59,294 bases of DNA, taken from the IMG/VR virus record IMGVR_UViG_3300007609_000022, positions 1-59,294 of that record; one strand, given 5' to 3'. The position numbers were made by a program, and so were the translations under genes. The notes under the pieces are model-generated. The model saw only the letters and a list, made by a program, of their open reading frames with translations, had not been told where the DNA came from and did no database searches. Positions 4,269 to 54,874 of the stretch are shown here, piece after piece. Positions within the stretch are counted from its first letter, which is position 1; each line of letters begins with the position of its first letter. Source of the stretch: a virus.

Positions 4269-4288
4269 GTTATGTGTATACTCCTATC

Positions 4289-4302
4289 GCTATTATAATA
4301 GC
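4289..4302. promoter_or_regulatory. Perfect 14-bp palindrome carrying TATAAT on both strands
   Basis: GCTATTATAATAGC is its own reverse complement and lies in the divergent gap between gp55 and gp48. It contains a perfect -10 hexamer on each strand. On the minus strand it lies 21 bases upstream of the gp55 start codon, with AGGAG between the two, so it could serve as the gp55 early promoter. I see no good -35 at 17 bases. It could also be an operator. Confidence 0.4.
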
Positions 4303-4315
4303 ATATTTTTCTAAG

Positions 4316-4323
4316 AATAAATA
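4316..4323 (+). promoter_or_regulatory. Late promoter box upstream of gp48
   Basis: AATAAATA matches the T4 late -10 element TATAAATA at 7 of 8 positions. It sits 27 bases before the gp48 ATG, with a Shine-Dalgarno-like AGGAAA between them. It is the natural start of the plus-strand tail block, and gp55, the factor that would read it, is encoded next door. Confidence 0.6.
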
Positions 4324-4350
4324 GAGTTAAGAATAGGAAATTTTACCAAA

Positions 4351-5714: not shown

Positions 5715-5715
5715 T

Positions 5716-37636: not shown

Positions 37637-37660
37637 TAAAATACATAGGTAAATAAAAAC

Positions 37661-38790: not shown

Positions 38791-39144
38791 ATGGATGAAC
38801 GCTTAAAAAATGCACTAGAGTTCGCAAATTATCGACAAACACTGTCGGCACAACGAAAGATTCTTAAAGAAAAAAGTCAAGCAAAGTTAACATATGGATT
38901 TAACGGTGGTCTTTTTAAAATCGATCAAACGCTAATTAACTTTATTTTTACATTAGAATCTGCAGGAAGAATTACAAATGTAGTAATTTTAGATTCTAAT
39001 GAAAACCCGATTTTAATTGAAGATTTGAATAAGTTTAAAGACGAAGTGTTTGACAGATATTTCACTGTAACTAATGAATATTATGAAGAATACAAGAAAA
39101 TTAAATCTAGTAGAACAATAGAAAAACTTATTAGTTATGAATAA
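38791..39144 (+). CDS. Small protein of unknown function at the head of the cassette (117 aa)
   Basis: It begins MDERLKNALEFANYRQTLSAQ behind a strong AGGAG. The N-terminal helix is Lys/Gln-rich. The centre has a beta-type stretch (KLTYGFNGGLFKIDQTLINF), followed by VVILDSNENPILIEDL and a charged helical tail. I recognise this kind of protein from similar regions of marine T4-like phages but cannot give a function. Its stop overlaps the next start by eight bases, so it is coupled to the first glycosyltransferase. A regulatory or assembly role for the cassette is possible. Confidence 0.6.
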   Translation: MDERLKNALEFANYRQTLSAQRKILKEKSQAKLTYGFNGGLFKIDQTLINFIFTLESAGRITNVVILDSNENPILIEDLNKFKDEVFDRYFTVTNEYYEEYKKIKSSRTIEKLISYE

Positions 39145-40000
39145 GGGTGTTGTTCTGTTTGCGCATAATAATAGAAAAATTGACTATGCACTAATGTCTG
39201 TAATTTCCGGCGGATTTGCAAAAAAACATCTGAAAGTTCCTGTTAGTTTAATTACTGACAGTTCTACGCTTGACTGGATGAAAAAATCTAAAATTTATTC
39301 TAAAGCTAAATCTGTTTTTGATAAAATTATATTAACTGATCGCCCCGAAACTAATAATAATAGAATTTTATATGACGGTCTTGAAAAAGACGTTGTGCCT
39401 TTCAATAATAGTAATAGATCATCTGTGTGGGAATTAACACCCTATGATAGAACACTCTTAATAGACAGTGATTATTTAATTATGTCTCAAGATTTATCAA
39501 AATATTGGAGTGTCGACTCGGATTTATTAATTTCCTCAGCCATAAATGATCCAATCGGTGATAAAAGAACCGGATATTTAGATAAACATGTTTCTGCGAC
39601 TGGTGTAAAATTATTTTGGGCAACGACAGTTATGTTTACCAAAAACGAAAAAACAAAAAAGTTTTTTGAAACAGTAGATCTAATAAAAGAAAAATACAAT
39701 ATGTTTAGCGACATTTACAGATTTAGTAATACCCAGTATAGAAATGATATCAGTTTCAGTATTGCTAAACATATTTTTGATGGTTTTCAAGAATTATACT
39801 CGTATGATTTGCCAGAAGTGTTGACGTTTACTGATAAAGATATTTTACAAGAAGTTACTAAAACTGGAGATCTAATATTTTTAGTAAGCGAAACATTTAA
39901 TGATAACTATTTTCCAATTTTAATTAAAGATCGAGACGTACACATTATCAATAAACAGAGTATTACTAGACATTCTAAAAAATTGTTGGATCTTATATGA
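39137..40000 (+). CDS. Glycosyltransferase-like protein, DSD type (287 aa)
   Basis: A GT-A-like fold is suggested by an N-terminal strand (GVVLFAHNNRKIDYALMSV), a nucleotide-sugar-type region (VPVSLITDSSTLDWM) and the acidic motif IDSDYLI near residue 112, following WELTPYDRTLL. The DxD-type acid pair would bind metal and nucleotide sugar. The next gene repeats the same layout (SPWEYTVCLDSDML), so the two are paralogues. No signal peptide or membrane segment is present, indicating action in the host cytoplasm. The sugar donor and acceptor cannot be read from the sequence. Confidence 0.65.
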   Translation: MNKGVVLFAHNNRKIDYALMSVISGGFAKKHLKVPVSLITDSSTLDWMKKSKIYSKAKSVFDKIILTDRPETNNNRILYDGLEKDVVPFNNSNRSSVWELTPYDRTLLIDSDYLIMSQDLSKYWSVDSDLLISSAINDPIGDKRTGYLDKHVSATGVKLFWATTVMFTKNEKTKKFFETVDLIKEKYNMFSDIYRFSNTQYRNDISFSIAKHIFDGFQELYSYDLPEVLTFTDKDILQEVTKTGDLIFLVSETFNDNYFPILIKDRDVHIINKQSITRHSKKLLDLI

Positions 40001-40836
40001 ATTTTGGATACTTGCTCTTTGTATCAGATCACGATACTATTGATTACACCAAGCTTGCGTATGCTTTAGCCCTTAGTATCAAGGGTACACAAAAGCCAGG
40101 TTATGATAAAGTAGCACTAGTAATAGATAATCCTGACAGGTTGCATGAGCTAAACAGCTCATGGGTGTTTGACGAAGTTATCGAATGGAGTGAGCAAGCA
40201 GGATGGGATGGAAGATCATGGATGGACAAACTAAGTCCTTGGGAATACACCGTTTGTTTAGATTCCGATATGTTATTTTTGCGTGATTACAGTCACTGGA
40301 TTGATTATTTTATCGAAAATACAGAATTATATGTTTCTAATAAAAGTTATACATACAGAGGACACAAAGTTACTAACGATTACTATAGGAAAACATTTAC
40401 AAAAAATGATCTTCCGAATTTGTATAGCTTTTATACATTTTTTAAAAAAAATAGTAATTTATCACAGGAATTTTTTGAATTAGGTAGATATATAATTAAA
40501 AATCCTATAGAATTTTCAAATAAATTTCTATCAAAATTGAAACCTAAGGTAATAGGAACAGATGAAGCATTTTCTTTAAGTGCTAAAATTCTAGACATTC
40601 AAGATGAAATTGCGTATGATTTAGAATTTCCAAAAGTTTTACATATGAAAGGACAAATACAGGATTTTCCGTTTCCTGCAGAGTTAGTATCGGATCACTT
40701 AGGGTTTTATTTCGATTCAAATTGCAATTTAAAAGTAGGAAACTATCAGCAGACCGATATTATACACTACGTTGAAAAAGACAAAATAACTTTAGAAGTT
40801 TTGCATTTATTAGAGAAAAAAGTATGGAAGATCTAG
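39997..40836 (+). CDS. Glycosyltransferase-like protein, DSD type (279 aa)
   Basis: The start overlaps the previous stop by four bases (ATGA). The N-terminus GYLLFVSDHDTIDYTKLAYALALS matches the preceding protein. The likely metal and nucleotide-sugar motif is CLDSDMLFLRDYSHW near residues 87-101. A basic/aromatic region follows (SYTYRGHKV) and then an EAFSLSAKILDI helix, typical of the acceptor side in GT-A enzymes. It is a cytoplasmic protein. Tandem duplication with divergence suggests successive transfer steps. Confidence 0.65.
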   Translation: MNFGYLLFVSDHDTIDYTKLAYALALSIKGTQKPGYDKVALVIDNPDRLHELNSSWVFDEVIEWSEQAGWDGRSWMDKLSPWEYTVCLDSDMLFLRDYSHWIDYFIENTELYVSNKSYTYRGHKVTNDYYRKTFTKNDLPNLYSFYTFFKKNSNLSQEFFELGRYIIKNPIEFSNKFLSKLKPKVIGTDEAFSLSAKILDIQDEIAYDLEFPKVLHMKGQIQDFPFPAELVSDHLGFYFDSNCNLKVGNYQQTDIIHYVEKDKITLEVLHLLEKKVWKI

Positions 40837-41450
40837 AGGATATTGGAAGATTAATTAAGGAGTATATATCACAAGAAGTCTCATACTCAGCAGAATTTAA
40901 TATAAAAACAGGAAGAGTTGTTAGAGTAGGACCTAGTCATGGGTTTAATTTAGAAAACAAAAATGTAATATCAGTCGACGACGAAATAGCCGAAAAAATA
41001 TTATCTGGAGGGCTTTCAATATCTAATTGTTTTGTAGATATTGTAAATGAAACCTTCGAAATCATAGAAACAAAAAGTCTAAGCAAGTTGGACGATTTGC
41101 TTCATAGGATAATGTATATAGAACATGCTAATATAGAATCTCCTGATTTATATGTGCTGTATGAAAATAATTCTTTGATTGTTGAATTATCAGAAGAATT
41201 AGGAGGATCATATAAGTTATCTAAAAATTTAAACCCGATCAAAAAAAGAAAACTATTGTGGTCGGGCGACACCGATGTAAGCTTTCTTTTAACTAGTTAT
41301 AATGATCCTCATATTGTATTTGATGAATATCAATGCTCATTGCAAGATTTATTAAAAGGGCCTGTTATATTTGATGATGTTAAATTTTCTAATAATAATA
41401 GCTTATACACTAAAAGATTGTTTAAAAATTATGTAATGGAGATTAAATGA
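40824..41450 (+). CDS. Unknown cassette protein (208 aa)
   Basis: Overlaps the previous gene by 13 bases and the next by four. No known catalytic motif is seen. Acidic, leucine-rich segments dominate (ETKSLSKLDDLLHRIMYIEH; LIVELSEELGGSYKLS). The C-terminal third has LLWSGDTDVSFLLTSYNDP, and the protein ends in a basic patch (TKRLFKNYVMEIK). Its tight coupling to the glycosyltransferases suggests a helper role. It could also be a degenerate glycosyltransferase. Confidence 0.55.
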   Translation: MEDLEDIGRLIKEYISQEVSYSAEFNIKTGRVVRVGPSHGFNLENKNVISVDDEIAEKILSGGLSISNCFVDIVNETFEIIETKSLSKLDDLLHRIMYIEHANIESPDLYVLYENNSLIVELSEELGGSYKLSKNLNPIKKRKLLWSGDTDVSFLLTSYNDPHIVFDEYQCSLQDLLKGPVIFDDVKFSNNNSLYTKRLFKNYVMEIK

Positions 41451-42334
41451 AGATATTGGATTTTGATATAATATTCCTAAGTTATGATGAGCCGAATGCA
41501 GAAGAACATTATGCAGATTTGTGTAATAAATTACCGTGGGTACAACGTATTCACGGAGTAAAAGGATCTGATGCTGCACATAAGGCAGCAGCCGAACTAA
41601 GTGAAACTGACTGGTTTATAACAATTGATGCTGACAACATAGTTCGTCCCTCATTTTTCGACTTAGATTTAGATATGAGTGATCCGAATATAGAAGTGTA
41701 TGGTTGGTGCGGACGTAATAATATTAACGGTCTTCGGTACGGAAACGGAGGCCCTAAGATCTGGAAGAAAGATTTTGTTTTAAATATGAAAACACACGAA
41801 GCTGCCGAAACAGAAAATGCTCAAGTAGATTTTTGTTGGGAAGCTGGATATAAAAATTTTCCAGTAACCTACAGTGATAGTATAATAAATTCTACACCTT
41901 TTCAAGCATGGCGAGCAGGTTTTAGAGAAGGTGTTAAAATGACACTCAAGGACGGTATTAAAGTACCTCCTCAAGAAATACAACAACATATTTGGTGGCA
42001 CAATATACATCGTCTGCGTATGTGGTCAACCGTAGGCTCTCATGTCGAAAACGGAAAATATGCGATTCTTGGAGCTCGCCAAGGAACTCATATGACTAAC
42101 TGTACTGATTGGAATCATGTGCAAGTTAGAGATTTTGAATATCTTAAGGAACTATATAAAGAAATAGTAGAACCTTTAGAAAATAATATTGATTCGAAAA
42201 TTGAACATTTAGGAAAAGAGATTAAGTACGGTCTGGGATTAGATTGGCCAGATTTTGATGCAAGACAGAGCCAATACACACTAGATTTATATGAAGAAAC
42301 ACTAAACCTAGGTATAACTTATTATAATGTATGA
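41447..42334 (+). CDS. Glycosyltransferase-like protein of the phage DEPNAEE type (295 aa)
   Basis: Begins DIIFLSYDEPNAEEHYADL, followed by VQRIHGVKGSDAAHKAAAEL and the acidic strand WFITIDADNIV near residue 65, then NGLRYGNGGPKIW. This pattern fits a GT-A-like domain and recurs in the C-terminal domain of the next protein (FISYEEPNAEDNY, RVHGVKG, WVVDGDAKIV, YGYGGIKL). A second half, with WRAGFREGVKM and HMTNCTDWNH, also has a counterpart there. Acceptor specificity is unknown. Confidence 0.65.
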   Translation: MKILDFDIIFLSYDEPNAEEHYADLCNKLPWVQRIHGVKGSDAAHKAAAELSETDWFITIDADNIVRPSFFDLDLDMSDPNIEVYGWCGRNNINGLRYGNGGPKIWKKDFVLNMKTHEAAETENAQVDFCWEAGYKNFPVTYSDSIINSTPFQAWRAGFREGVKMTLKDGIKVPPQEIQQHIWWHNIHRLRMWSTVGSHVENGKYAILGARQGTHMTNCTDWNHVQVRDFEYLKELYKEIVEPLENNIDSKIEHLGKEIKYGLGLDWPDFDARQSQYTLDLYEETLNLGITYYNV

Positions 42335-43670
42335 TATATTGTTTGTTGGTAACGATGAAAAACAATTTAAACAACTGAGTAAGTGTTATCCTAACAGCCA
42401 GTGGGTAACATTCAACGACTTCGACGACCTCAAAAAACAATCATTTACAAAACATTTTTGGTTGGTTCATGATGACTATAATATAGTAGAAACCTTTAAT
42501 CTAAATTCATACAAGATCGATAAATGGGATTCTCAATACCATCATGTGTTTTTAAACGATAATGAATATGACGGATTAGTTCTATTAAATAAAACCCTAA
42601 CCGTATCTACTAAGGAATTAAAACATAGATTTTATACAAACCAAAAAAAAATAGAAAAAAAAGTATCCTTGCCGAAAAAATTCGATATTTTTAGTGTTAA
42701 AAATTACGATGATTATTTAGAAATTTATAATCAGGTTGATAAAGATCTTTTTTGGATTGTGTTTGATGACTTAACCGTTGTTGAAGATTTTGATTTTTCT
42801 TTTTATATTCCTCATCATAATTTTGCAGATCGTAAACAAAATCATATCTTTTTAAACGATAATGTTTTTGATGGAATTATACTTGCCAGTAGATATAAGA
42901 AGATTTCTAAAAAAGAGTTCGAATACAGATTTTTAATTAGTAAAAAAGAAATTAATATAAAGGCAAGTATACCTAATCCTTTTGATATAGTTTTTATATC
43001 ATATGAAGAACCTAATGCAGAAGATAATTATAAAGATCTACAACAGCGATTTCCTAACGTAAAGCGGGTACATGGTGTTAAAGGTATTCACCAAGCACAC
43101 ATCGCCGCAGCAAAGCTCTGTGACACCAAAATGTTTTGGGTAGTTGACGGCGATGCAAAAATTGTGGAAAATTTTAATTTTAATTACCAAGTAGCAGCAT
43201 GGGATAAAAATGTAGTTCATGTTTGGCGAAGTAAAAACCCAATCAATGATCTTGTTTACGGATACGGCGGCATTAAATTACTACCAAGAGATTTAACAAT
43301 AAATATGGATACTTCAAAGCCCGACATGACTACTAGTATCAGTAGTAAATTTAAACCAGTAAACGAAATATCTAATATTACAGAATTTAATACTGATCCA
43401 TTTAATACCTGGAAGTCTGCATTTAGAGAATGTGCTAAGTTAGCTAGTAAAACCATACAAGGACAAATTGATGAAGAAACAGAACAGCGGTTACAGGCCT
43501 GGACAACACAAGGCAGAGAACGGAGATTCGGAGATACCGCAATTCGAGGAGCAAGACTTGGTAGTGTTTTCGGTAGTACTAATAGGAATAATCCTGCTGA
43601 GCTTGCTCTTATAAATGATTTTGATTGGCTTAAACAAGAATTTATTAAAAGTGAAGTAAATGAACAGTGA
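42327..43670 (+). CDS. Three-repeat glycosyltransferase-like protein (447 aa)
   Basis: The C-terminal domain (residues about 217-447) is a paralogue of the whole preceding protein. Two further degenerate copies of its first half precede it. Residues 44-110 (FWLVHDDYNIVETF...HHVFLNDNEYDGLVLL) and 142-210 (FWIVFDDLTVVEDF...NHIFLNDNVFDGIILA) align with 270 onward (FWVVDGDAKIVENF). The first two copies have HDD or FDD where the last has DGD, so they may be substrate-binding rather than catalytic. It starts inside the previous stop region and ends 11 bases into the first radical SAM gene. Confidence 0.65.
   Translation: MYDILFVGNDEKQFKQLSKCYPNSQWVTFNDFDDLKKQSFTKHFWLVHDDYNIVETFNLNSYKIDKWDSQYHHVFLNDNEYDGLVLLNKTLTVSTKELKHRFYTNQKKIEKKVSLPKKFDIFSVKNYDDYLEIYNQVDKDLFWIVFDDLTVVEDFDFSFYIPHHNFADRKQNHIFLNDNVFDGIILASRYKKISKKEFEYRFLISKKEINIKASIPNPFDIVFISYEEPNAEDNYKDLQQRFPNVKRVHGVKGIHQAHIAAAKLCDTKMFWVVDGDAKIVENFNFNYQVAAWDKNVVHVWRSKNPINDLVYGYGGIKLLPRDLTINMDTSKPDMTTSISSKFKPVNEISNITEFNTDPFNTWKSAFRECAKLASKTIQGQIDEETEQRLQAWTTQGRERRFGDTAIRGARLGSVFGSTNRNNPAELALINDFDWLKQEFIKSEVNEQ
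42456..43300 (+). repeat. Threefold internal repeat in the 447-aa glycosyltransferase-like protein
   Basis: Copies near residues 44-110, 142-210 and 269-320 share FW[IL]V...D...[IV]V[E]xF[ND][FL]N and H[VI][FW]LNDN..DG[LI][VI]L. The periodicity is about 97 residues between copies 1 and 2 and about 128 between copies 2 and 3. Confidence 0.6.
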
Positions 43671-45039
43671 ATTAGAACAAATAAAAAACATTATTCCTAT
43701 AACAAATCAGGAAGTTAGTAATACTTTTTGCATGGCAAAGTGGCATCACACAACTATATATCTGCAAACAGGAGAGACACATAGTTGTTATCATCCTCCC
43801 CCTCACAAAATTCCTCTAGATGAAATTCAAGAGGATCCTAGTGCGTTGCATAATACAAAAGAGAAAAAAGAACAACGTAAGCAAATGTTGCAGGGAAATA
43901 AACCAAGCGGTTGCAATTACTGTTGGAAAATTGAAGAAATGGGAGAAGACTATATTAGCGATCGTCACATAAAAACAGCTAGTATATATACTCCTGAAAG
44001 GTTGCAGGAAATAAAACAAGGCAATTTTGATTATAATATCAATCCTGAATATATTGAAATTAGTTTTTCTAACGAGTGCAATTTTAAATGCGGCTATTGT
44101 CATCCCAAAGCTAGCAGCCGATATTGGAATGAAATTAACAAATATGGTCCTTACGATGTTAGTACAGATCATAGACAGGATATTGATTGGTTTGATGTAT
44201 TTCATAAAGAAGAAGAAAATCCTTATGTAGATGCTTGGTGGAAATGGTGGCCTGAAGTTAGTAAAACATTAAACATTTTACGCATTACTGGAGGAGAGCC
44301 TTTAATGCATCGGAGCACATGGGAATTGTTTGATAGATTAGACCGAGACCCTAAGCCACACATTCAAATTGAATTAAACAGTAATTTGGGAGTAAAATCT
44401 AAACTGGTTGAAAAATTAGTAGAGCGTGTTACCAAGCTTAAAACAGAAAATAAAATTCGCAGTTTTAAACTTTATACCAGCATCGATACTTGGACAACTC
44501 GTGCAGAGTATACCAGAACAGGATTAGATATAAATCTCTGGGAACGTAACTTAGATTATTACTTGTCTAATACTGGCTGGCCTGTAACATTTATGATTAC
44601 ATTTAATTTGTTCAGTGTGACTAGCTTTAATTCGTTGCTTGAGAAAATTCTAGAATGGCGAAAAAAATATAATACTGATGACAACAGTACTCAATGGCAG
44701 CGTGTAAGATTCGACACTCCTCATTTAAAAGAACCTAGTATATATGATATGAATATACTTCCTAAAACAGAGTTTATGCCTTACATGCATATGCATCTAG
44801 AGTTTATAAAAAATAATATAGATGATGATAATCGTACTAAGTTTACCTCTATTGAGTACGAAAAGTTTAAGCGTGTGGTTGATTATATGGAGAAAACAGT
44901 GTATCATGATAATAAATTACAAGAGTCAAGAAGAAATTTTTCCAGATGGTTTGATGAACACGACAAGAGAAGAGCGGTTAACAAAGAAGAAATTTTTCCA
45001 GAAATGAAAGATTTTTTTGAATTGTGTCGCCAACAGTAG
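43660..45039 (+). CDS. Radical SAM protein with N-terminal twitch-like domain (459 aa)
   Basis: The N-terminal cysteines C24 (FCMAKW), C43, C85 and C88 (SGCNYCW) match the four ligands of an auxiliary iron-sulphur cluster. The radical SAM core follows, with C140-x3-C144-x2-C147 (CNFKCGYC) and GGEPL at 211-215. Later comes the family signature SIDTW...YTRTG...LWERN, then a C-terminal tail EEIFPEM. Such enzymes cleave SAM to the 5'-deoxyadenosyl radical and modify a peptide or small molecule. The start at 43660 is preferred because a downstream ATG would lose C24. Overlap with the glycosyltransferase gene shows shared translation. Substrate unknown. Confidence 0.85.
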   Translation: MNSELEQIKNIIPITNQEVSNTFCMAKWHHTTIYLQTGETHSCYHPPPHKIPLDEIQEDPSALHNTKEKKEQRKQMLQGNKPSGCNYCWKIEEMGEDYISDRHIKTASIYTPERLQEIKQGNFDYNINPEYIEISFSNECNFKCGYCHPKASSRYWNEINKYGPYDVSTDHRQDIDWFDVFHKEEENPYVDAWWKWWPEVSKTLNILRITGGEPLMHRSTWELFDRLDRDPKPHIQIELNSNLGVKSKLVEKLVERVTKLKTENKIRSFKLYTSIDTWTTRAEYTRTGLDINLWERNLDYYLSNTGWPVTFMITFNLFSVTSFNSLLEKILEWRKKYNTDDNSTQWQRVRFDTPHLKEPSIYDMNILPKTEFMPYMHMHLEFIKNNIDDDNRTKFTSIEYEKFKRVVDYMEKTVYHDNKLQESRRNFSRWFDEHDKRRAVNKEEIFPEMKDFFELCRQQ

Positions 45040-45047
45040 GAAACAAA

Positions 45048-45590
45048 ATGATATTAAAACCTTTAAAATTGGATTATAATTTTGATGTTTTTTTAAATGC
45101 AGATTATAGTGTTCATTACGGTAGTTGTATATCGTACCAAAAAAAAGAACAAAGCGATCTGCATGAAAAATTTGGTACAGGATTTCCTGATAGCTATCAT
45201 GAAGATAATACCAGAATACAACAACTTTGGTGGACCGATGACCAAATCGATTATAAAGAACTTGGGAATCAACTCGGAATGAAAGTAATTACAGTCAGTA
45301 CTATTCTTCAACCTCCAGGAAATGTAGTAACCTTACATCGCGACATGTTTTTTCAAATCAATAAACAATATCCTAATGACAAAAGAACTAAAGTTAGAGC
45401 TAACATTTATTTAGAAGATTGGAAAGTAGGACATTTTTTACAATATACAGATGGAAAAAAATGGCATTCGCACACCGATTGGAAACAAGGACAAGGATGG
45501 CTTTGGGATAGCGAGCCTTTGCATCTTAGTGCAAATGCCGGACTCGAGCCAAAATATACATTGCAAGTGAGCGGATTTTATAATGCATGA
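45048..45590 (+). CDS. Putative Fe(II)/2-oxoglutarate-dependent oxygenase (180 aa)
   Basis: I place the start at the ATG at 45048, behind TAGGAAAC, rather than at a GTG at 45024 inside the previous gene. The protein has the order expected of a double-stranded beta-helix oxygenase: PPGNVVTLHRDMFF gives the HxD pair (H97, D99), then RANIYLEDWKVGHF, and WLWDSEPLHLSANAG supplies the distal histidine (H159), followed by KYTLQVSGF. This resembles phage proteins of the aspartyl/asparaginyl hydroxylase-like 2OG group. Lying between two radical SAM genes, it could hydroxylate the same substrate. The assignment rests on the motif order only. Confidence 0.6.
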   Translation: MILKPLKLDYNFDVFLNADYSVHYGSCISYQKKEQSDLHEKFGTGFPDSYHEDNTRIQQLWWTDDQIDYKELGNQLGMKVITVSTILQPPGNVVTLHRDMFFQINKQYPNDKRTKVRANIYLEDWKVGHFLQYTDGKKWHSHTDWKQGQGWLWDSEPLHLSANAGLEPKYTLQVSGFYNA

Positions 45591-47961
45591 TATATTAATT
45601 TTTACCACACAAAACGATATTAATTTTCATGGACCTATTACAATTAATTCATTACCTAAACATAGTTCTTTATTTTTAGAAAAATTATTTATTGGGTTTA
45701 AAAACTTCGATCGAAATCAAATTATGAGATTTGAATTTTTTGATTCGTTTGGGGGTGATAACATTAAATTAGTGATGAATATTAATTATATTCCTTCGGA
45801 TAATAACATATATGTTGATGAACACGTTCTAAATAAAATTAATAAAACAGCTAATGCTTATTTATGGATAGTATCTCCGTGGGAAGCGGTGATTCACAGA
45901 GATAAATTAATGGAGCATATTAATAATAGTCCTATAAAAAATGAAAAGGTTATTGTCACTACTAGTAATACTGAATATGCTGGAAGTACTATCGACGGCG
46001 TAAAATTTACCTGTATACATGATTTCTGGGAAGGACAATACAGACATCATATTAAACATTTTTCTGATGTAAGCTATATTCATCCAAACCAAAAGAAAAA
46101 AACACTAAAATCAGCATCTAAAAAATTTTTATCGTTAAATAGAAATCTTAAACATCACCGCGTGTGGACCTATTATCAGCTTTTAAACTCTCCTACATGG
46201 AACGAGAGTCACGTAAGTTATCATTTACCGAGTATTGCAAAAGAAGAAGGCATGGACTTTAAGTCTTTTGTAAACCGTGCTCTTTTAAAAATTGATAACA
46301 AGCTTAAACGTAAAAAAGTAAATCAATTGTATAAAAACAAAACACTGGATAAATTAGATAGTACATGGATTATTAACCATAAAAATGATATTATTCCTTA
46401 TTATCATGATTCTTTATTCAGTATTGTAACAGAAAGTTTATTAGATGAACAGTTTATTACTGAAAAAACTTTTAAGCCGATGATGCACGGACATCCTTTT
46501 GTATTTTTAGGATCACAAAAAAACTTAGAAAGACTAAAGCTTCGAGGCTACGAAACATTCGAAGATGTATTCGGTATAGGTGCAATTGAAACTCCTAAAC
46601 AATTAGAACAATTTTTGAATCATGTTCATAAAACACCTCTAGAAGAATGGCGACAGAAAATCATCGATGTATGGGACAGAGTTGAATTTAATTATTTTCA
46701 TTTTTTAGGTTCTACACACGATTACGAATTTTTTGTTAATGAAATTAATAAAATTACAGATCAAGACAGATCTAAAGGATATTTTTGTATGGCACCTTGG
46801 GTTCATATGAGTATCTGGCAAAAAGGCGAAGCATTTCCGTGTTGTGTGTACGACTGGAGAACTCCGATTGGAAATATAAAAGATCAAGGAATTGCTGGTG
46901 CCTGGAATAGCGAAGATATGAAAAATCTTCGACTTGAAATGTTAGCAGGCAATGCACCTAAAGGATGCGAACGATGTACTAAATTAGATAAACAGGGAAT
47001 TTATAGTTATCGTAGAAAAATTACCGAAGATTACAAACATCATCTGCCATTAGTAGATACAACTAACGAAGACGGCTCAGTCGATAAAGTTAATCTTGCA
47101 TATTTTGATATACGTTTCAGCAATCTATGCAACATGAAATGTCGTTCGTGCGGTCCGCATTTTAGTAGTAAATGGGCTGAAGATACTGTAGGCAAACCTG
47201 TAATAATACAGATAGATCATGAAGAAATGTGGGATGAGATCGAACAATATATCGATACGATTGAAGAGATATATTTTACAGGCGGCGAAAGTTTGTTTAT
47301 GGATCAGCACTATAGACTTTTAGATATGATAATCGCTAATAACAAGCATCCTAAACTTGTTTATAATAGCAATGGCTCTAAATTAGAACACAAAGGTAAA
47401 AGTGTAACTGATTACTGGAAAAAAATTAAAAATAATATTGAATTTCAGGTAAGTTTAGATCAAATTGGTAAAAAAGCAGAATATACAAGGCACGGTCAAA
47501 AATGGAGTACCATTGAAAATAATTTAAAATTTATTAGAGATAATATTCCAAATGTAGCAATTATTCCTAATCCTACAATAAGTGTTTTAAATATTATGGA
47601 TCTAAAAGAAATTATTGAATATCTATTTGAAAATAAACTAGTAACTGAATGTAATATAAATTTAAATAATATTTTAATGACCCCAGAATGGATGAGTATT
47701 CAAATATTACCTAAACATTTAAAACGCAAAGTCGAAGAAAATCTTAATTTATTTTTATATAACTCTCTAGATAACTACGAAATGGAGCCAGTAATTAGAA
47801 ATATCTATATGGATTGTATTCCTAAAATTATAAACATAATGAATGAAAGTGACGAAAGTCACAGAATATCTGAGTTTAAACAAGAAATGCAAAAACTGGA
47901 TAAAATAAGAGAAGAAAATTTCTTAGAAGTCTTTCCAGAATTGGGTGAATTATATGAATAA
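45583..47961 (+). CDS. Fusion of GT10-like glycosyltransferase with N-twitch radical SAM domain (792 aa)
   Basis: Residues about 1-390 are glycosyltransferase-like. The segment FSIVTESLLDEQFITEKTFK at 279-298, followed by MHGHPFVFLGS, resembles the nucleotide-sugar site of GT10 fucosyltransferase-type enzymes. From residue 400 a complete N-twitch radical SAM protein begins: C402 (FCMAPW), C420/C421, C462 and C465, then C516-x3-C520-x2-C523 (CNMKCRSC), GGES at 567-570, SLDQIG...YTRHG...W, and a tail ending EVFPELGELYE. The reading frame is continuous, with no stop or frameshift at the junction near 46770. A fused pair implies that sugar transfer and radical chemistry act on one substrate or pathway. 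Confidence 0.82.
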   Translation: MHDILIFTTQNDINFHGPITINSLPKHSSLFLEKLFIGFKNFDRNQIMRFEFFDSFGGDNIKLVMNINYIPSDNNIYVDEHVLNKINKTANAYLWIVSPWEAVIHRDKLMEHINNSPIKNEKVIVTTSNTEYAGSTIDGVKFTCIHDFWEGQYRHHIKHFSDVSYIHPNQKKKTLKSASKKFLSLNRNLKHHRVWTYYQLLNSPTWNESHVSYHLPSIAKEEGMDFKSFVNRALLKIDNKLKRKKVNQLYKNKTLDKLDSTWIINHKNDIIPYYHDSLFSIVTESLLDEQFITEKTFKPMMHGHPFVFLGSQKNLERLKLRGYETFEDVFGIGAIETPKQLEQFLNHVHKTPLEEWRQKIIDVWDRVEFNYFHFLGSTHDYEFFVNEINKITDQDRSKGYFCMAPWVHMSIWQKGEAFPCCVYDWRTPIGNIKDQGIAGAWNSEDMKNLRLEMLAGNAPKGCERCTKLDKQGIYSYRRKITEDYKHHLPLVDTTNEDGSVDKVNLAYFDIRFSNLCNMKCRSCGPHFSSKWAEDTVGKPVIIQIDHEEMWDEIEQYIDTIEEIYFTGGESLFMDQHYRLLDMIIANNKHPKLVYNSNGSKLEHKGKSVTDYWKKIKNNIEFQVSLDQIGKKAEYTRHGQKWSTIENNLKFIRDNIPNVAIIPNPTISVLNIMDLKEIIEYLFENKLVTECNINLNNILMTPEWMSIQILPKHLKRKVEENLNLFLYNSLDNYEMEPVIRNIYMDCIPKIINIMNESDESHRISEFKQEMQKLDKIREENFLEVFPELGELYE

Positions 47962-49150
47962 TAAACATTTTTGTATGATACCGTGGATACATATGCATCT
48001 TTGGCCAGCCGGTACCACGTATCCGTGTTGCATGTCCGATCCAGATCTACCAATTGGCGATACTCAAACACAAAGTTTGCAAGAAATTTGGAACGGTGAA
48101 CAACTACGAACAATACGACAAAACATGCTGGCTGATAAACCTAGCCCGGAATGCCGACGCTGTTATGAACTGGAAGAGAATAACATGTGGACCTTGCGCA
48201 ACAGTTCAAACGTTAACTTCAAACATCATTACGATAAAGTAATTGCTACTGATAAGGATGGTTATGCCGGCGAGGTTAATATGGCATATATGGATATACG
48301 CTTTTCGAACCTGTGCAATTTAAAATGTCGTTCTTGCGGTCCGCAATTTTCTTCAAGTTGGTTTGAAGATCACAAAGCCACAAACGGTGATCCGGGACAT
48401 CCTAAGATATTAAAGGTTCGAGATGACATGCTTAATTTCATGGACGAATTAGAACCGCTATTAACGTCTGTAGAGCGTGTGTATTGGGCCGGCGGCGAAC
48501 CGCTTATTACAGATGAGCACTATAGAATTTTAGATTTTTGGATAGCACACGGAATGCACGATGTGAAATTGGACTATACTACTAATTTTACACAAATGCG
48601 TTTTAAAAAGAAAACAATTTTTGATTATTGGAACGCATTTAAAAATGTCCGGGTTGCGGCAAGCTTAGATGCAAACCATGCAAGAGGCGAATATCTTAGA
48701 AAGAACATGGATTGGTCTCAAGTTGTTCAAAACAGACGCGACATGATTGAACAATGCCCTCACGTATATTTTGAATTGACACCTACAGTAAGTGTGTATA
48801 ATGTATTGAATCTTCCAGACTTTCACAAAGAATGGGTCGAAGAAGGATTATTAGAACCCGCAAATGTTAGAATTAACATTTTGCTAGATCCAACCTACAT
48901 GCGATTGCAGATACTACCTGAAAAAATAAAAGATAAAGTTCGCCGTAGATATGACGATCATATAAAATATTTGAGATCTTTCAATGGCACAGAAGAAGCA
49001 ATACAAAATTATAAAAATATACTCCAGTTTTTAGAAACAGACCGAAGCGACGAAATTCTAATGTGGCAATATAAGACTGAGAAAATTGACAAGTTACGCA
49101 ATGAAAAAGTGTTTGATGTTTTTCCAGAATTGGGGGATATTAATGTATAA
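47954..49150 (+). CDS. Radical SAM protein with N-terminal twitch-like domain (398 aa)
   Basis: The ATG at 47954 overlaps the stop of the fusion gene; an upstream GTG at 47945 would add three residues. It is the closest paralogue of the radical SAM half of that fusion (FCMIPWIHMHLW; DIRFSNLCNLKCRSCGP shared almost exactly). Ligands: C7, C25/C26, C67, C70 for the auxiliary cluster, and C121-x3-C125-x2-C128 for the radical cluster. GGEPL is at 180-184. The signature is SLDANH...YLRKN...WSQVVQN, and the tail is DVFPELGDINV. Recent duplication from, or into, the fusion is likely. Substrate unknown. Confidence 0.88.
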   Translation: MNNKHFCMIPWIHMHLWPAGTTYPCCMSDPDLPIGDTQTQSLQEIWNGEQLRTIRQNMLADKPSPECRRCYELEENNMWTLRNSSNVNFKHHYDKVIATDKDGYAGEVNMAYMDIRFSNLCNLKCRSCGPQFSSSWFEDHKATNGDPGHPKILKVRDDMLNFMDELEPLLTSVERVYWAGGEPLITDEHYRILDFWIAHGMHDVKLDYTTNFTQMRFKKKTIFDYWNAFKNVRVAASLDANHARGEYLRKNMDWSQVVQNRRDMIEQCPHVYFELTPTVSVYNVLNLPDFHKEWVEEGLLEPANVRINILLDPTYMRLQILPEKIKDKVRRRYDDHIKYLRSFNGTEEAIQNYKNILQFLETDRSDEILMWQYKTEKIDKLRNEKVFDVFPELGDINV

Positions 49151-51356
49151 TAAATCTCAAAAAACATTTTTTGAGTTAGGAGATGATAATTGGACCCCAC
49201 CACCAAAACCATCTGGAGTTACCGCGGAAGATAAACATGTTGCTACGTTAGAAGCAATGCAACAATATGCGAAACCACCGCAGAAGAATTTGGAAGATCT
49301 GTCTATTGAATATTCAGTAGATCGTAAAACAAAAATATCTATGGTACTGTGTCCGGAATGGGATCCTGCATTTGTTCCTTATAATATTGCAAAACTAGCA
49401 GGTGCATTAAAGTCTGCAGGATATTTTTGTAAATGCTATGACCTTAATGTGGAAAGTTATTACAAATATAATCAAGATAAACAGAATAACCTTTTAAATA
49501 ATAAAATAGATTATTTTCCTTGGGATCCTATGCGAGACTGGCACTGGATCGGAGACAAATATTATAACGAACTCCATGAATACATAGAACCTATACTTGA
49601 GGATTGTGCTCAAAAAATTGTATATGAAGACGAAGCCGATGTTGTAGGATTTACTTTGTATTATTGTAATGAAGAACCTAGTAAATGGCTAGCAAATAGA
49701 ATTAAGGAATTAAATCCTAAAATCAAAATAGTTGTAGGAGGACCTCATACTCACTCCAGTCATTATTATGGTGATAAAATTTTTGACATAGTAGTAAATG
49801 GCGAAGGCGAAAAATCTTTGCTGTCAATTTTAGAAAGGTTAGAATCGGAAAATGAAATAATTGCAACAGATTCGCTCCCTAATACCGGAGTGCCTGTAAT
49901 AAGACAGCCAGAAAAGGAGATTACTAATCTCAGCACAATGCCAAGACCTTATTACGGCGATTTTGATTTTAAAAAGTATAAGTTTCCTAACGGTGCCTTG
50001 TGTGAAATTAGCAGGGGGTGTGTTGCTAAATGTGTATTTTGTGACGAAACTCATTTTTGGAAATATAGACAGAGAACAGCAATCTCCACACTTGAAGAAA
50101 TAGAACATATGTACTATGAACACGGTGTTAATGTATTTTGGTTCATAGACAGTTTGGTTAACGGCAATCTAAACGAACTTAGAGCATTTGTTAAAGGAGT
50201 TGCCGCAAAGGGATTGGAAATTAACTGGACTGGATATGCAAGATGCAATGGTAAAATGGATCTTGAATACTTTAAAGATCTAAAAGCAGGCGGGTGCTCT
50301 CTTTTAAATTATGGAATTGAAAGCGGAAGTCAGAAAGTTTTAGACGACATGGATAAAAAAGTCACTGTAGAAGAAATGGAGCAAAACTTCATTGACGGCG
50401 AGAAAGTTGGCATAGGTGCAATGACAAACTGGATTGTGGGATTTCCAAGTGAAGGCCCAAAAGAATTTGAAGATACCTTAACTTTTCTTTGGAGGATTAA
50501 AGATAAAAAACTAGAAGCGATCGCCCAAGGTCCGGGATTCAATGTCGGAGTAGATACTATTGTTGGACAGAATTTTGACAGATTTAATTTACAAGATCAT
50601 TATTATTTTGATCATTGGATCACAAAAGATTTCAAACACAGCATCATGCATAAAATGATCAAAATGAAGTGTTTCAGTATTTTTACAGATTATCTTCCGA
50701 CAAAGTATTCGTGTGCAAAACCACACAGACCCGAGCTAGCAAAACGTCATTATAAAATACGGTTTGACAATCCTAATAAAGAAAAACAGGTTGAATATAA
50801 CTATGAAGATTTTGATTATGAAATTATAAAACCTGGCCTTGGCAATTTTGCAGATAGCGTGATAAATGTAATATGGCCCTTTTTGAGAATATTGTGGAGA
50901 ACACGAGGCGGCTATCAATTGCATTTGATTTTTGATAAAGAGTTAGACAGACAAGAATGGGGAGAACGCGGCTCTGCTCCGCTGGATGCTGTTTATAATT
51001 TTATCATAGACGATTCGGGAAATTGGCAGGCAGACTTCAGTTTTGATTATCAGCAACCCAAATACACTGACTGGAACGATGAGAAAATTGACATGGGCAA
51101 CGGCGAATACAGAATCGAACCCGACACAATGGGACCAGTGTGGAGTCTTATGGAGTTTAGTCAGCATACAAGCAATTCTGTGGTCCGTGCTAGGAAATTA
51201 GCGTGGAAAGGTGACGAATCGAAAAAACATAGAGATCCGCACAATGCGTTTGATATAGAGGAGTTTATTCGTAAAAAAGAATTTTTTCACAAAAATAGAG
51301 ATTTAGATCTCAGTTTCAGTTTTGATTGGCAAGGAAACGGTTCATGGAAGAAATAA
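49143..51356 (+). CDS. B12-binding-type radical SAM protein with extra C-terminal domain (737 aa)
   Basis: The ATG at 49143 lies eight bases before the previous stop, just behind GGGGGA; an earlier in-frame start is inside the upstream gene. Residues about 60-235 have a Rossmann-like cobalamin-binding layout (YNIAKLAGALKSAGY, ADVVGFTLYY, KIVVGGPHTHS, VNGEGEKSLLSIL). I see no DxHxxG base-off motif. The radical SAM core has C293-x3-C297-x2-C300 (RGCVAKCVFC) and GIESGSQKVLDDM. From about 560 to 737 there is an extra domain of unknown type with two Trp/Phe-rich segments (NWQADFSFDYQ; LSFSFDWQGNGSW). Class B enzymes often methylate or rearrange unactivated carbons. Confidence 0.82.
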   Translation: MYNKSQKTFFELGDDNWTPPPKPSGVTAEDKHVATLEAMQQYAKPPQKNLEDLSIEYSVDRKTKISMVLCPEWDPAFVPYNIAKLAGALKSAGYFCKCYDLNVESYYKYNQDKQNNLLNNKIDYFPWDPMRDWHWIGDKYYNELHEYIEPILEDCAQKIVYEDEADVVGFTLYYCNEEPSKWLANRIKELNPKIKIVVGGPHTHSSHYYGDKIFDIVVNGEGEKSLLSILERLESENEIIATDSLPNTGVPVIRQPEKEITNLSTMPRPYYGDFDFKKYKFPNGALCEISRGCVAKCVFCDETHFWKYRQRTAISTLEEIEHMYYEHGVNVFWFIDSLVNGNLNELRAFVKGVAAKGLEINWTGYARCNGKMDLEYFKDLKAGGCSLLNYGIESGSQKVLDDMDKKVTVEEMEQNFIDGEKVGIGAMTNWIVGFPSEGPKEFEDTLTFLWRIKDKKLEAIAQGPGFNVGVDTIVGQNFDRFNLQDHYYFDHWITKDFKHSIMHKMIKMKCFSIFTDYLPTKYSCAKPHRPELAKRHYKIRFDNPNKEKQVEYNYEDFDYEIIKPGLGNFADSVINVIWPFLRILWRTRGGYQLHLIFDKELDRQEWGERGSAPLDAVYNFIIDDSGNWQADFSFDYQQPKYTDWNDEKIDMGNGEYRIEPDTMGPVWSLMEFSQHTSNSVVRARKLAWKGDESKKHRDPHNAFDIEEFIRKKEFFHKNRDLDLSFSFDWQGNGSWKK

Positions 51357-52564
51357 GTAAAACTTTTTGTGTATATCCTTGGATAAACGTTCATACAAAT
51401 ACTGATGGCAGGTGTAAATTGTGTTGTCATGTTTACACTGAAGATTATGTACAGGTCAACGGAAAAGATGCTATCTTAGGCGTAGATGAATTTGATGATA
51501 TTTGGACGGGCGACAATATGACAAAAATACGTCGCAAAATGCTCTCTGGAGAAAAAGTTAAAGCATGTAAAAGATGTTATGAGCACGAAGAAAAAGGCCT
51601 AGAAAGTAGTAGGCAATGGGCCAATAAAAATTACCCTATTTCCTCTACAGAGGTATATAATCCTACACATCTAGAATTACGTTTAGGAAATCATTGCAAT
51701 CTCAAATGTAATAGTTGTTGGAGTGTTAGTAGTGATAATATCTATAAAGAACGCAAAAAAATTATTGCTAGCGATACCATTCCGGATTGGTTATCAGATC
51801 AATGGAATCATGAAATTAACAGCGTAGAAAAATTCAACTGGCAATGGTTCGAAACAGACCAATTTAAAATGTTCGTAGACAGGGTCGCTCCAACACTTAA
51901 ACGTCTGTATTTGACCGGTGGCGAACCTACCCTTATAAAAGCAAATCAGTATGTAATTGACAAACTGGTTGAGTCTGGAAACAAAGACTGTTATGTGTGC
52001 TGGACCACAAATATGACTATCTGGCCCGAAGAATTTTATGATAAGTTAGAATTTTTTAACTCGAGTGAAATACAGATGAGCATTGATGGTTATAAAGACG
52101 CAAACATGTATATTAGATATCCAACAGATTGGGATAAGTTAGAAACTAATTTTGCAAAAGCCCAAAAATTACCTAGTAAAGTAGCACTTAAAATATATTT
52201 TGTTTATCAAGCATGGAATGTGTTTGATGTAGGAAATTTGCTAGAATGGCTCGAAGAAAATCAAACAAGGCGTATCGATTTTGTTCCTATTTTTCTAGAG
52301 CACCCTGATCAATTACACAGTTCAGTATGGCCAACGCATGTGCAAACTGAAATTGTAAATTATCTTAAATCAATCGAAACAGCACGTCATCGAGATGCAT
52401 TAGATAGAATTATTAACTACGCGGTTAATACTGATAAATATTCTGTTGAACAAATGCAAAGAATGAATCAGTTTATTAAAATAAATGATAGGCACAGAAA
52501 GTATAGCTTTGCAGACATTTTCCCCTATCTAAATCAAATACTGGAAAAAGAATGCAAGATATAA
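51344..52564 (+). CDS. Radical SAM protein with N-terminal twitch-like domain (406 aa)
   Basis: Starts at an ATG at 51344 inside the previous gene's end, with AAGGA upstream. Auxiliary-cluster cysteines are C9 (FCVYPW), C24, C27/C28, C75 and C78. The radical cluster is C118-x3-C122-x2-C125 (CNLKCNSC), followed by TGGEPTLI. Then come the signature SIDGYKDANMYIRYP...W and a tail DIFPYLNQILEK. It is more divergent than the 398-aa copy and lacks the GPxFSS segment behind the radical cysteines, so a different substrate is likely. The stop overlaps the next start by 13 bases. Confidence 0.85.
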   Translation: MEEISKTFCVYPWINVHTNTDGRCKLCCHVYTEDYVQVNGKDAILGVDEFDDIWTGDNMTKIRRKMLSGEKVKACKRCYEHEEKGLESSRQWANKNYPISSTEVYNPTHLELRLGNHCNLKCNSCWSVSSDNIYKERKKIIASDTIPDWLSDQWNHEINSVEKFNWQWFETDQFKMFVDRVAPTLKRLYLTGGEPTLIKANQYVIDKLVESGNKDCYVCWTTNMTIWPEEFYDKLEFFNSSEIQMSIDGYKDANMYIRYPTDWDKLETNFAKAQKLPSKVALKIYFVYQAWNVFDVGNLLEWLEENQTRRIDFVPIFLEHPDQLHSSVWPTHVQTEIVNYLKSIETARHRDALDRIINYAVNTDKYSVEQMQRMNQFIKINDRHRKYSFADIFPYLNQILEKECKI

Positions 52565-53544
52565 AAGCAATTATACCCGCTAAAGAAAAATGGTGCAGTA
52601 TAGTATGGCAAGTAAACGATTGGTGCAACTATCGATGCTCCTATTGCAATGAATGGAATTGGGGCGGCCGAAACAAAAATGAAGACGAAATTAAAGTTAT
52701 TGTCGAAACACTTGAAAGGATAGTTGAACATTATCAGAGTAAAGGTTATAGATATTTTAAACTTTTTTTAAGCGGCGGCGAGCCAACTTTCTGGAAAGGG
52801 CTGATTCCTGTTGTAGAAAAATTTAGAGAAAAGGTAGAATGGCCTGGAAGTTGTGTAGGAATCAACACCAATCTTTCCAAATCTCTAAATTGGTGGAAAG
52901 GCCATCATTATCTATTTGAGGATGTAGTTGCTAGCTATCATCCCGAATTTTCCAAAGAACAAAAATATATTGAGACATTTAAATTTCTACAAGACAAAAA
53001 GAATTATTTGTGCTCGCGTGTTATGATGCAAAAAGAAAACTTCATACAGTGTATAGATTTTGCTGAAAAACTCAAGTCGGAGTGCGATAATTATATCATT
53101 GAATATGCACCTGTTTACGATCAACTTAGACCGGATGCAGAACCTTTTCATTATGACGAGGATTGGCATGTCGAATGGCTAAAAGAAAACAGTTATGAAA
53201 AGGTACAAACTGTGCCAATTAAAAAAGATCCCAATTATGCATACGCCAGAACCTGGTTCGAAGATGACACAATAACTCCTATAAACACAAATAATATTAT
53301 AGTACACGGAAAGAATTTTTTCAAAGGATGGTTTTGTAATATCCATGAAAGTTTGCATATTCATCCAAACGGAAACATTCAACAAGCAAGTTGCGGTGTA
53401 GGTCCGATTGTTGGTAATATCGTAAAAGGTGAATTTGATAAAAGTAGCACACAAGGAGTTTGGTGTCCCAAGAATCATTGTCATTGTGCAGCAGATTTTA
53501 ACATTTCCAAAGCAAGGCCCGAGCATGTCGATAAAATACAATAA
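52552..53544 (+). CDS. Radical SAM protein with C-terminal SPASM-like cysteines (330 aa)
   Basis: Unlike its neighbours, the radical SAM motif is near the N-terminus: C25-x3-C29-x2-C32 (CNYRCSYC), then SGGEPTFW at 74-81. The cysteine-rich part is at the C-terminus: C262, C281, C305, C310 and C312 (SCGVG; CPKNHCHC), as in SPASM/twitch enzymes that carry auxiliary clusters. SPASM enzymes typically modify peptides or proteins, which makes this the member most suggestive of a protein substrate. It overlaps the previous gene by 13 bases and the next by 20. Confidence 0.85.
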   Translation: MQDIKAIIPAKEKWCSIVWQVNDWCNYRCSYCNEWNWGGRNKNEDEIKVIVETLERIVEHYQSKGYRYFKLFLSGGEPTFWKGLIPVVEKFREKVEWPGSCVGINTNLSKSLNWWKGHHYLFEDVVASYHPEFSKEQKYIETFKFLQDKKNYLCSRVMMQKENFIQCIDFAEKLKSECDNYIIEYAPVYDQLRPDAEPFHYDEDWHVEWLKENSYEKVQTVPIKKDPNYAYARTWFEDDTITPINTNNIIVHGKNFFKGWFCNIHESLHIHPNGNIQQASCGVGPIVGNIVKGEFDKSSTQGVWCPKNHCHCAADFNISKARPEHVDKIQ

Positions 53545-54874
53545 TATTAAAGACTCAACATATTGTTTTTTTGCAATGCATAGTTTTAGTGTGCATGCAC
53601 ACGGCAAAGCGCGGGCTTGTTGTGTTAGCAGAGACAAGAGCAAGTCATATCTTGAAGGTTATAATGATCTAATAAGCCTCAAAGATGTGCATGGCAGTAG
53701 TCAGTATAAAGTCGTTCATTCGCTCGATGATTTTGTAAACGATCCTGTATTAATGCAAATGCGGAAAGATATGCTAGAAGGAATCCGCCCAGAAGCATGT
53801 ACCAGATGTTGGAATTTAGAAGAGCAAGGAATTAAAAGTTTTAGACAAATTAACAACACTACTTACTCTGATTTAATAGATACTGATTTATCTAACATAG
53901 ATGAAGACGGTAGAATGAACATATCGAGTATTAAATATCTTGATATTACATTGGGAAATGTATGTAATCTCAAATGCAGAAGTTGCAATCCGTGGAACAG
54001 TCATCGTTGGATAGAAGAAGGTCCTCATTTACCACACAACGGGTGGACTGAAAGTGCATATAACACAGGAAGATTAAGCTCCGAAGCACCTTGGTTTGCT
54101 CGAGCGTTTGCCGAAGGATTGTTCGATGATGTGTTGTCTAATATAACCAGTATAAACTTTTTAGGTGGCGAACCGCTGGTTGTAGAGGAACATTACGAGT
54201 GGTTACAAAAAATAATCGAAATGGGTCACGCAAACCATATCAATTTATATTATAATACAAATGCAACAACCATTCCAGACAAATTATACGATATATGGAA
54301 AGAATTTAATGGTGTAAATCTAGGTATAAGCATTGATGCTATAGGAGATTTAGCATATTATGTTCGGCATCCGAGTAAGTGGAAGGTGATCGAACGAAAT
54401 ATGCTTAAATTGGCAGAGTTTACAAAACAGCATAAAAATATATTTGTGCAGATGCATAGCACATTAAGCTGTCTAAACCTGCACGATCTTCCTAATCTTT
54501 TAGAATGGTCTCGACAAAATTATGAAGCTTGGCACTATACATGGAAATGGGGAAATTACGGTTACCAAAATTGTATCCCCCATTTTAACATAGTTGAATA
54601 TCCTTCTTTTATGCATATTAAGCACCTGCCAGATGAAATAAAAGAATCTTTAAACAATATGTTAGATCGAGAATATGAAAAATATTCGAATATGAACCTA
54701 AATGAATGGGAGTATTCGAGTTTGGATAACATAATTGGTATTAAAAATACGCTAAATCAAGAAAGAGATTCAAGCGAATGGAAAAAATTTATAGAAAATA
54801 CAAAGGCAAGCGATAATTTTAGAAGTTTAAATATTGTCGATTATGTACCTTGGATGGAACCCTACTTAAAATAG
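53525..54874 (+). CDS. Radical SAM protein with N-terminal twitch-like domain (449 aa)
   Basis: The start at ATG 53525 (MSIKYNNIKD) lies within the previous coding end; the frame is open further upstream but only inside the neighbour. Auxiliary cysteines: C14, C32/C33, C92 and C95 (CTRCW). Radical cluster C147-x3-C151-x2-C154 (CNLKCRSC), then LGGEPLVV. The signature is SIDAIGDLAYYVRHP...W, and the C-terminus reads IVDYVPWMEPYLK, a variant of the FPEL tail. The usual FCxxPW opening is replaced by YCFFAM. It is the last cassette gene, and its end overlaps the convergent minus-strand gene by nine bases. Confidence 0.85.
   Translation: MSIKYNNIKDSTYCFFAMHSFSVHAHGKARACCVSRDKSKSYLEGYNDLISLKDVHGSSQYKVVHSLDDFVNDPVLMQMRKDMLEGIRPEACTRCWNLEEQGIKSFRQINNTTYSDLIDTDLSNIDEDGRMNISSIKYLDITLGNVCNLKCRSCNPWNSHRWIEEGPHLPHNGWTESAYNTGRLSSEAPWFARAFAEGLFDDVLSNITSINFLGGEPLVVEEHYEWLQKIIEMGHANHINLYYNTNATTIPDKLYDIWKEFNGVNLGISIDAIGDLAYYVRHPSKWKVIERNMLKLAEFTKQHKNIFVQMHSTLSCLNLHDLPNLLEWSRQNYEAWHYTWKWGNYGYQNCIPHFNIVEYPSFMHIKHLPDEIKESLNNMLDREYEKYSNMNLNEWEYSSLDNIIGIKNTLNQERDSSEWKKFIENTKASDNFRSLNIVDYVPWMEPYLK

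Follow-up and report, generated by a model that had tools for sequence, protein, structure and literature searches.

A virus-borne array of twitch-domain radical SAM genes, a candidate glycan-remodelling system in T4-like phages

That marine T4-like phages can carry large sets of radical S-adenosylmethionine (rSAM) genes, and that rSAM cassettes occur in a phage host recognition cluster, has already been published. According to the available parts of the papers concerned, a T4-like TARA genome with 12 rSAM genes was reported in 2017 (PMC5332604), the pelagimyophage host recognition cluster holds glycosyltransferase (GT) genes and rSAM cassettes (PMC7029224), and rSAM genes are described as abundant in phage contigs from the Tasman Sea (PMC7150976). 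Here we describe an array of seven rSAM genes, five of them with an N-terminal twitch domain, at 43660–54874 of IMG/VR virus record IMGVR_UViG_3300007609_000022; the whole stretch analysed, 59,294 nucleotides long, is referred to as the window. The array shares with the TARA genome a T4-like phage and multiple rSAM genes, and with the pelagimyophage cluster also a tail/GT region; the available parts of these two papers do not resolve paralogue identity, twitch domain, B12 type, fusion or carbamoyltransferase linkage. In open PMC papers we found no description of a twitch-paralogue array, a GT–rSAM fusion or the carbamoyltransferase linkage. We lean towards glycan as the substrate class of the array, which on balance reads best as the part of a phage-encoded island for glycan building that performs radical chemistry.

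The eight genes of the array were found by inspection of the open reading frames (ORFs) to be intact and to overlap end to end:

43660–45039, plus strand: twitch rSAM protein t1; 305.8 bits against NF033640 (N_Twi_rSAM), curated cut-off 170
45024–45590, plus strand: 188-residue protein, possible non-haem iron oxygenase; H105, D107 and H167 invariant in an alignment of four
45583–47961, plus strand: fusion of a GT10-like domain (residues 1–395) with twitch rSAM protein t2 (about 400–792); NF033640 379.8 bits at 401–791
47945–49150, plus strand: twitch rSAM protein t3; NF033640 394.3 bits; cysteines invariant in 17 sequences
49143–51356, plus strand: B12-binding rSAM protein, probable start at ATG 49143; PF02310 36.8 bits, PF04055 54.5 bits
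51326–52564, plus strand: twitch rSAM protein t4, start may be ATG 51344; NF033640 306.2 bits
52552–53544, plus strand: rSAM protein loosely like STM4011 with four invariant C-terminal cysteines; PF04055 32.4 bits, NF038073 44.7 bits (cut-off 200)
53525–54874, plus strand: twitch rSAM protein t5; NF033640 326.2 bits

A preliminary description of this DNA had listed seven rSAM frames in a row whose ends overlap or nearly touch, and both statements hold. Adjoining array genes share 8 to 31 bases, the figure varying with the start codon chosen. The B12-type frame used in our searches starts at 49122 with a TTC codon; the gene most likely begins at ATG 49143. CxxxCxxC occurs once in each of the seven rSAM proteins and, in agreement with the earlier count of six, is followed in six by GG(E/D); the B12-type protein is the one without it. 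All five predicted twitch proteins match NF033640 over nearly their full length. The Pfam SPASM model is above cut-off in the 45583, 47945 and 51326 proteins, below it in the 53525 protein and absent in the 43660 protein. Across 17 sequences of the 47945 family, with identities to the window protein down to 37%, eight cysteines (C10, C28, C29, C70, C73, C124, C128 and C131) do not vary; the N-terminal auxiliary cysteines and CxxxCxxC come from this alignment for that family and from motif reading for the other four twitch proteins. Mutual identity among t1–t5 is 21–37%, thus they are not the product of recent duplication.

At E ≤ 0.01 the twitch profile found only two BtrN sequences in the PDB, aligned by way of the twitch domain (best E 1.9e-4); the substrate of BtrN is an aminocyclitol. 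The matched twitch domain sits in the second half of BtrN, whereas it is N-terminal here, and the rSAM core lies outside the match. The B12-type protein is above cut-off for both PF02310 and PF04055, in line with its earlier assignment, and its profile matches 9ccb, TokK, CysS and others in the PDB. It shares these matches and the B12-binding and rSAM domains with B12-dependent rSAM methyltransferases (TokK, CysS, and TIGR03975, which methylates carbon in ribosomally synthesised and post-translationally modified peptides, RiPPs), but differs in a long extra C-terminal region and in its scores; among the 25 of 26 named B12 rSAM NCBIfam families listed, none is over cut-off, the best giving 104.7 bits against 281.85. 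The 330-residue protein at 52552 exceeds the cut-off of PF04055 and falls under that of the STM4011 family NF038073. Its C-terminal cysteines (262, 281, 305 and 310) are invariant in eight sequences including its own; Pfam SPASM does not call them, so the earlier “SPASM-like” label is only partly backed. For the “oxygenase-like” gene at 45024, the conserved HxD...H pattern makes a non-haem iron oxygenase possible, and neither Pfam, PHROG nor the PDB lent support (the PDB profile search gave one chance-level row).

Scans of viral sequences gave 179 loci, of which 154 have at least three twitch genes; dropping loci that share two or more twitch sequences left 122. These 122 carry arrays of 3–10 twitch rSAM genes, and the generalisation that phages usually carry one or two rSAM enzymes fails for this group. 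The prevalence is a lower bound, because the scan with the t3 alignment lists at least 594 relatives (best 80 kept); the B12-type alignment found 213 (80 kept) and a single-sequence scan with the B12-type protein found the same contig only. Ten long contigs hold 5–16 twitch members over cut-off, 88 in all, with 16 in one 347-kb contig. In the 179 loci, overlapping ones included, adjacent twitch genes share a strand in 402 of 402 pairs (median overlap 8 bases), and CxxxCxxC is kept in 745 of 755 twitch ORFs, the remaining ten being cut by the locus end; in the material examined, none of the refuting outcomes named in the preliminary description, cysteine loss in relatives among them, was seen. 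Thirty-six arrays have long flanks. Eleven of these include a B12 type (10 also an STM4011-like rSAM gene, one with a carbamoyltransferase) and 25 do not (4 with an STM4011-like rSAM gene, 21 with a carbamoyltransferase). The array in the window follows the B12-type style and is typical of its kind, which is widespread but little described.

A tree of 102 rows, made by a quick method and containing some long branches, places t1–t5 in separate clades, each with orthologues from other phages. The 22 bacterial sequences in it, drawn from 67 single-copy loci of a t3-based scan, fall on one side of one branch beside t3 (support 87). Bacterial loci have one twitch copy within the fetched flanks in 67 of 79 cases, unlike the tandem paralogues found here, one of them fused to a GT-like domain. 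The other 12 bacterial-labelled loci (within L186–L264, genome_contigs) have two to eight twitch genes, and some may be phage contigs binned into metagenome-assembled genomes. The median ratio of non-synonymous to synonymous substitution (dN/dS) is 0.057–0.118 for six rSAM genes (t1 left out; pairs outside dS 0.05–2 dropped), indicating purifying selection. Because the paralogues are old and distinct, conserved and encoded in one direction, a virus-borne multi-step modification pathway, as suggested earlier, is plausible; that interpretation as a whole is partly supported.

The window lies within a 152-kb contig, with 100% identity over 1–7610 and 37945–59294, the parts compared, so that a join at about 38.7 or 54.9 kb, a concern raised in the preliminary description, is unlikely; the longer contig may derive from the same reads. 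The order tail gene, 117-residue gene, GT, GT, small gene, GT, rSAM genes is also repeated in diverged relatives (among them L018, L020, L021, L026 and L031), and a chimera is not supported. Beyond 54.9 kb the genes lie on the minus strand.

Among 50,697 isolate phage records, three (two Vibrio phages and a single-cell fragment) have twitch relatives, and none matched the 41447, 38791, 39137 or 52552 proteins. The cultured Vibrio phage K566 (L034) has three annotated rSAM genes close together at 19965–24367, and these sit on long branches of the tree; a nearby gene (29978–30427) carries the annotation PagP. FeS_assembly_P matched in none of the ten long contigs, so these phages do not in general carry an Fe–S helper from that family, although one SufE and one FeS_assembly protein occur among 120 sampled array neighbours. 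A further recurrent protein (L116:1802–2800, its cluster present in 35 loci) belongs to a PHROG of unknown function and has no Pfam match; we take it to be amidinotransferase-like.

The clue to substrate least tied to our own models comes from sugar-enzyme genes, since the Pfam models for PF02543 carbamoyltransferase, DegT aminotransferase and epimerase were built independently of the array loci. In the ten long contigs, seven of nine carbamoyltransferase genes lie 1.2–2.7 kb from the main array; random placement put a mean of 0.78 within 5 kb and reached seven in none of 20,000 placements. Seven of 16 DegT genes (p 0.011) and seven of 21 epimerase genes (p 0.068) lie within 20 kb of the main array. 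For these counts, split matches of one gene were merged by hand and one epimerase row below cut-off was left out. The linked contigs (G002–G007 and G009) share the order epimerase, DegT, GT-A-like, FucT-like (in six of seven), carbamoyltransferase, array, GT, with the DegT and epimerase genes 8–13 kb out from the array. On the contig of the window (G001, positions 207 and 10551), a carbamoyltransferase and a DegT gene would stand about 5 and 16 kb past the array if that contig is circular.

GT-like genes occur within the fetched flanks in 118 of the 122 loci, including all 36 with long flanks, and tail-type genes in 64 of the 122; both sets of models were built from array loci, and many of the 122 loci are partial. 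Among non-twitch ORFs, 42 of 171 near arrays are GT-like versus 0 of 261 in control stretches. The tail-fibre model gave 5 matches near arrays versus 4 in control stretches of the same contigs. The proposed link to tail-fibre genes is real but less constant than the GT link; a tail-fibre substrate is possible. Pfam scans covered 120 of 714 near neighbours and 120 of 205 control proteins (25 of 102 control families listed). None of the four PF00535 rows is close to a main array.

Residues 1–395 of the fusion protein form a separate GT-like domain. Its likeness to GT10 fucosyltransferases consists of a weak PF00852 match (14.3 bits, E 0.002, at window 46306–46632) and a fold match to fucosyltransferase 7yro (Z 8.3, root-mean-square deviation 4.7, 224 aligned residues); it is unlike them in falling below the PF00852 cut-off of 23.9, and the model has low pLDDT in this domain. 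Only one PF00852 match in the ten contigs is over cut-off (G007:161073), far from the main array. Among 764 twitch ORFs, fusion of the FucT-like domain (window 45583–46767) to a twitch protein was detected in this phage (the window and L006) only. Outside it the FucT-like protein has its own gene, which adjoins a twitch gene on the same strand in 57 of the 92 loci that have one. Across whole contigs FucT-like genes are closer to twitch genes than random (38 genes, ten contigs, median 6.0 vs 14.4 kb, p 0.002), with a profile seeded from array loci. The fused domain, this adjacency and the whole-contig proximity point to a glycan, as does the carbamoyltransferase position. Median dN/dS of the FucT-like domain is 0.39, against the far lower values of the rSAM genes; many pairs have high dS and the contrast is indicative. 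The faster evolution would fit a fixed chemistry with a varying choice of donor or acceptor. Several t3-type twitch proteins (L056, L075, L102 and others, at about 9.5–11.2 kb) have an N-terminal extension of some 150–165 residues.

Upstream of the array lie baseplate, tail-fibre and tail-region genes, followed by four GT-like genes within 39137–43670:

36698–37636, plus strand: 312-residue putative virion or tail-region protein, with a 31% identical paralogue at 37661–38725
38791–39144, plus strand: 117-residue small protein at the tail/GT boundary
39137–40000, plus strand: putative GT8-like (glycogenin-like) glycosyltransferase, from profile search
39997–40836, plus strand: second putative GT8-like glycosyltransferase, same profile; 25% identical to the 39137 protein over 210 residues
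40824–41450, plus strand: 208-residue protein, no family match in Pfam or PHROG
41447–42334, plus strand: putative GT-A-like glycosyltransferase, from an AF2 model (pLDDT 70.7)
42327–43670, plus strand: 447-residue protein with the GT-A-like domain repeated in its C-terminal half, 36% identical over 238 residues to the 41447 protein

At E ≤ 1 the joint profile of the 39137 and 39997 proteins matched only glycogenins in the PDB (best E 5.6e-4), and D112, H269 and K273 of the 39137 protein are invariant in 19 sequences. For the 41447 model the best Foldseek match is ArnC (GT2; E 1.8e-4, TM only 0.27), and a PDB profile search of its family gave chance-level rows only. The 36698 protein, which had no Pfam or PHROG match, is a candidate glycoprotein substrate. 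Its relatives precede the GT block in other contigs, and a single-sequence search found homologues in three of the ten long contigs. Distant relatives (about 31% identity over 63%) occur in 11 Pseudomonas jumbo phage records. Relatives of the 117-residue protein hold the same position in L017, L018, L020, L021, L024, L026–L028 and L031; with a model built from array loci, six lie near arrays and none in control stretches. The host recognition cluster of pelagimyophages lies between VrlC and gp14; here a 4593-residue baseplate-type protein stands upstream and was not identified as VrlC, nor was gp14 identified.

These genes suggest the following scheme. Soluble phage glycosyltransferases (GT8-, GT-A- and GT10-like) would assemble a sugar chain in the host cytoplasm. 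The five twitch rSAM enzymes would cut SAM at the CxxxCxxC cluster, abstract hydrogen from a sugar carbon and so bring about a series of epimerisation, dehydrogenation or deoxygenation reactions, while the N-terminal auxiliary cluster would either handle the electron or hold the substrate. The B12-type enzyme would methylate an unactivated carbon, and in related phages a carbamoyltransferase, aminotransferase and epimerase may extend the island. The finished glycan would most likely end on a tail-region protein of the virion or on the host surface. A simple hydropathy scan of 27 window genes found no membrane-spanning stretch; a gene set of this kind suits either work on virion proteins in the cytoplasm or, for surface glycans, reliance on host export machinery. 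The analysis shows the genes themselves, their cofactor-binding residues, a conserved gene order, selection and, in relatives, a linkage to families of sugar enzymes; enzyme activity, substrate, sequence of steps and destination are inferred.

Several observations weigh against a glycan. Fold comparison fails to tell sugar from peptide rSAM enzymes, which score alike: BlsE (Z 11.0), anSME (10.7), SkfB (10.4) and DesII (10.2). No GT-like gene of the window has a Pfam match over cut-off, PF01501 (GT8) does not match the 39137 or 39997 genes at E ≤ 1, and FucT-like profiles have no PDB match. The VIA rows for the 41447 model (Z 8.1–10.0) mix nucleotidyltransferases (IspD, MobA) with GT-A glycosyltransferases, so that protein has a nucleotide-sugar-type fold and is not a proven glycosyltransferase. 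Evidence for the glycosyltransferase identity of the 39137–43670 genes is weak to moderate. The GT enrichment and the 118 of 122 count rest on models made from the surroundings of the arrays themselves. The window's own contig has two carbamoyltransferases and one DegT gene 83–135 kb from the array and no epimerase match; in G008 and G010, likewise of the B12 type, neither a carbamoyltransferase nor DegT was matched. The seven linked contigs may share their order by descent, which the shuffles ignore. Tail-type genes flank 29 of the 36 long-flank arrays. Finally, neighbours of bacterial single twitch genes show no glycan theme among the 25 of 109 families listed, the most frequent being PTA_PTB (10), and GT2-type models match 2 of 110 proteins; this sample comprised the first 110 of 148 proteins drawn by script from 237 eligible, the 12 multi-twitch loci being left out.

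Should the product be a glycan, its sugars could be destined for host lipopolysaccharide or O-antigen, excluding competing phages, a destination we regard as rather doubtful. In the available text, PMC7029224 assigns both GT genes and rSAM cassettes to the host recognition cluster and proposes that the GTs alter the O-chain, while PMC7824862 proposes outer-polysaccharide products for GT clusters of jumbo cyanophages; the PagP annotation near the rSAM genes of the cultured phage tends the same way. The placement in the late structural region is equally compatible with a virion product, and with no membrane protein found in the 27 window genes, flippase, polymerase and lipid-linked steps would need to be supplied by the host.

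Direct protein modification is unlikely but deserves consideration. The rSAM enzymes would then introduce RiPP-like or anSME-like crosslinks, epimerisation or thioethers, most likely in tail-region proteins such as those at 36698–38725, and the GT-like genes would glycosylate the same proteins. SPASM/twitch rSAM enzymes often modify peptides. The best fold matches include anSME, SkfB and SuiB, tail-type genes recur as described above, and the 312-residue family occurs 8 times near arrays versus 0 in control stretches (models built from arrays). Yet seven of the 36 long-flank arrays, including five of the 11 B12-type ones, have no tail-type gene, and carbamoyltransferase, aminotransferase and epimerase linkage fits sugars better. 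In the array operon, where genes overlap, there is no gap for a precursor peptide, though precursors may lie at a distance, and the Pfam results for the array contain no PqqD-type domain.

A role in auxiliary metabolism, boosting a host cofactor route such as haem as “ahbD”, is very improbable: 261 viral “ahbD” genes appear in the available part of a Baltic Sea study (PMC9301287) and AhbC/AhbD/NirJ models score here below threshold, but far below it (AhbD model 15.8 vs 500 bits), and five to sixteen paralogues per contig are unsuited to one cofactor step. Glycosyltransferases of phage T4 can act on DNA, and hypermodification by rSAM enzymes and glycosyltransferases acting on phage DNA bases can be conceived. 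That phage GTs can glycosylate DNA is also stated in the available part of PMC12619734; the placement of the island among baseplate and tail genes, and a carbamoyltransferase and aminotransferase linkage that seems untypical of base modification, make it hardly credible here.

Returning to glycan remodelling, we tentatively propose that in large uncultured T4-like and jumbo phages many twitch paralogues and a B12 methylase edit the sugars of a growing glycan sequentially, partly directed by the GT–rSAM fusion, to give exotic glycans on the virion or host surface. Radical enzymes are oxygen-sensitive and costly in iron, and these phages nevertheless keep many distinct paralogues under purifying selection. 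Viral “ahbD” calls may be misnamed twitch rSAM genes. If glycan editing is correct, it would represent a virus-encoded route to unusual sugars and a source of regio-selective enzymes, and would provide a testable account of rSAM genes that surveys class as metabolic.

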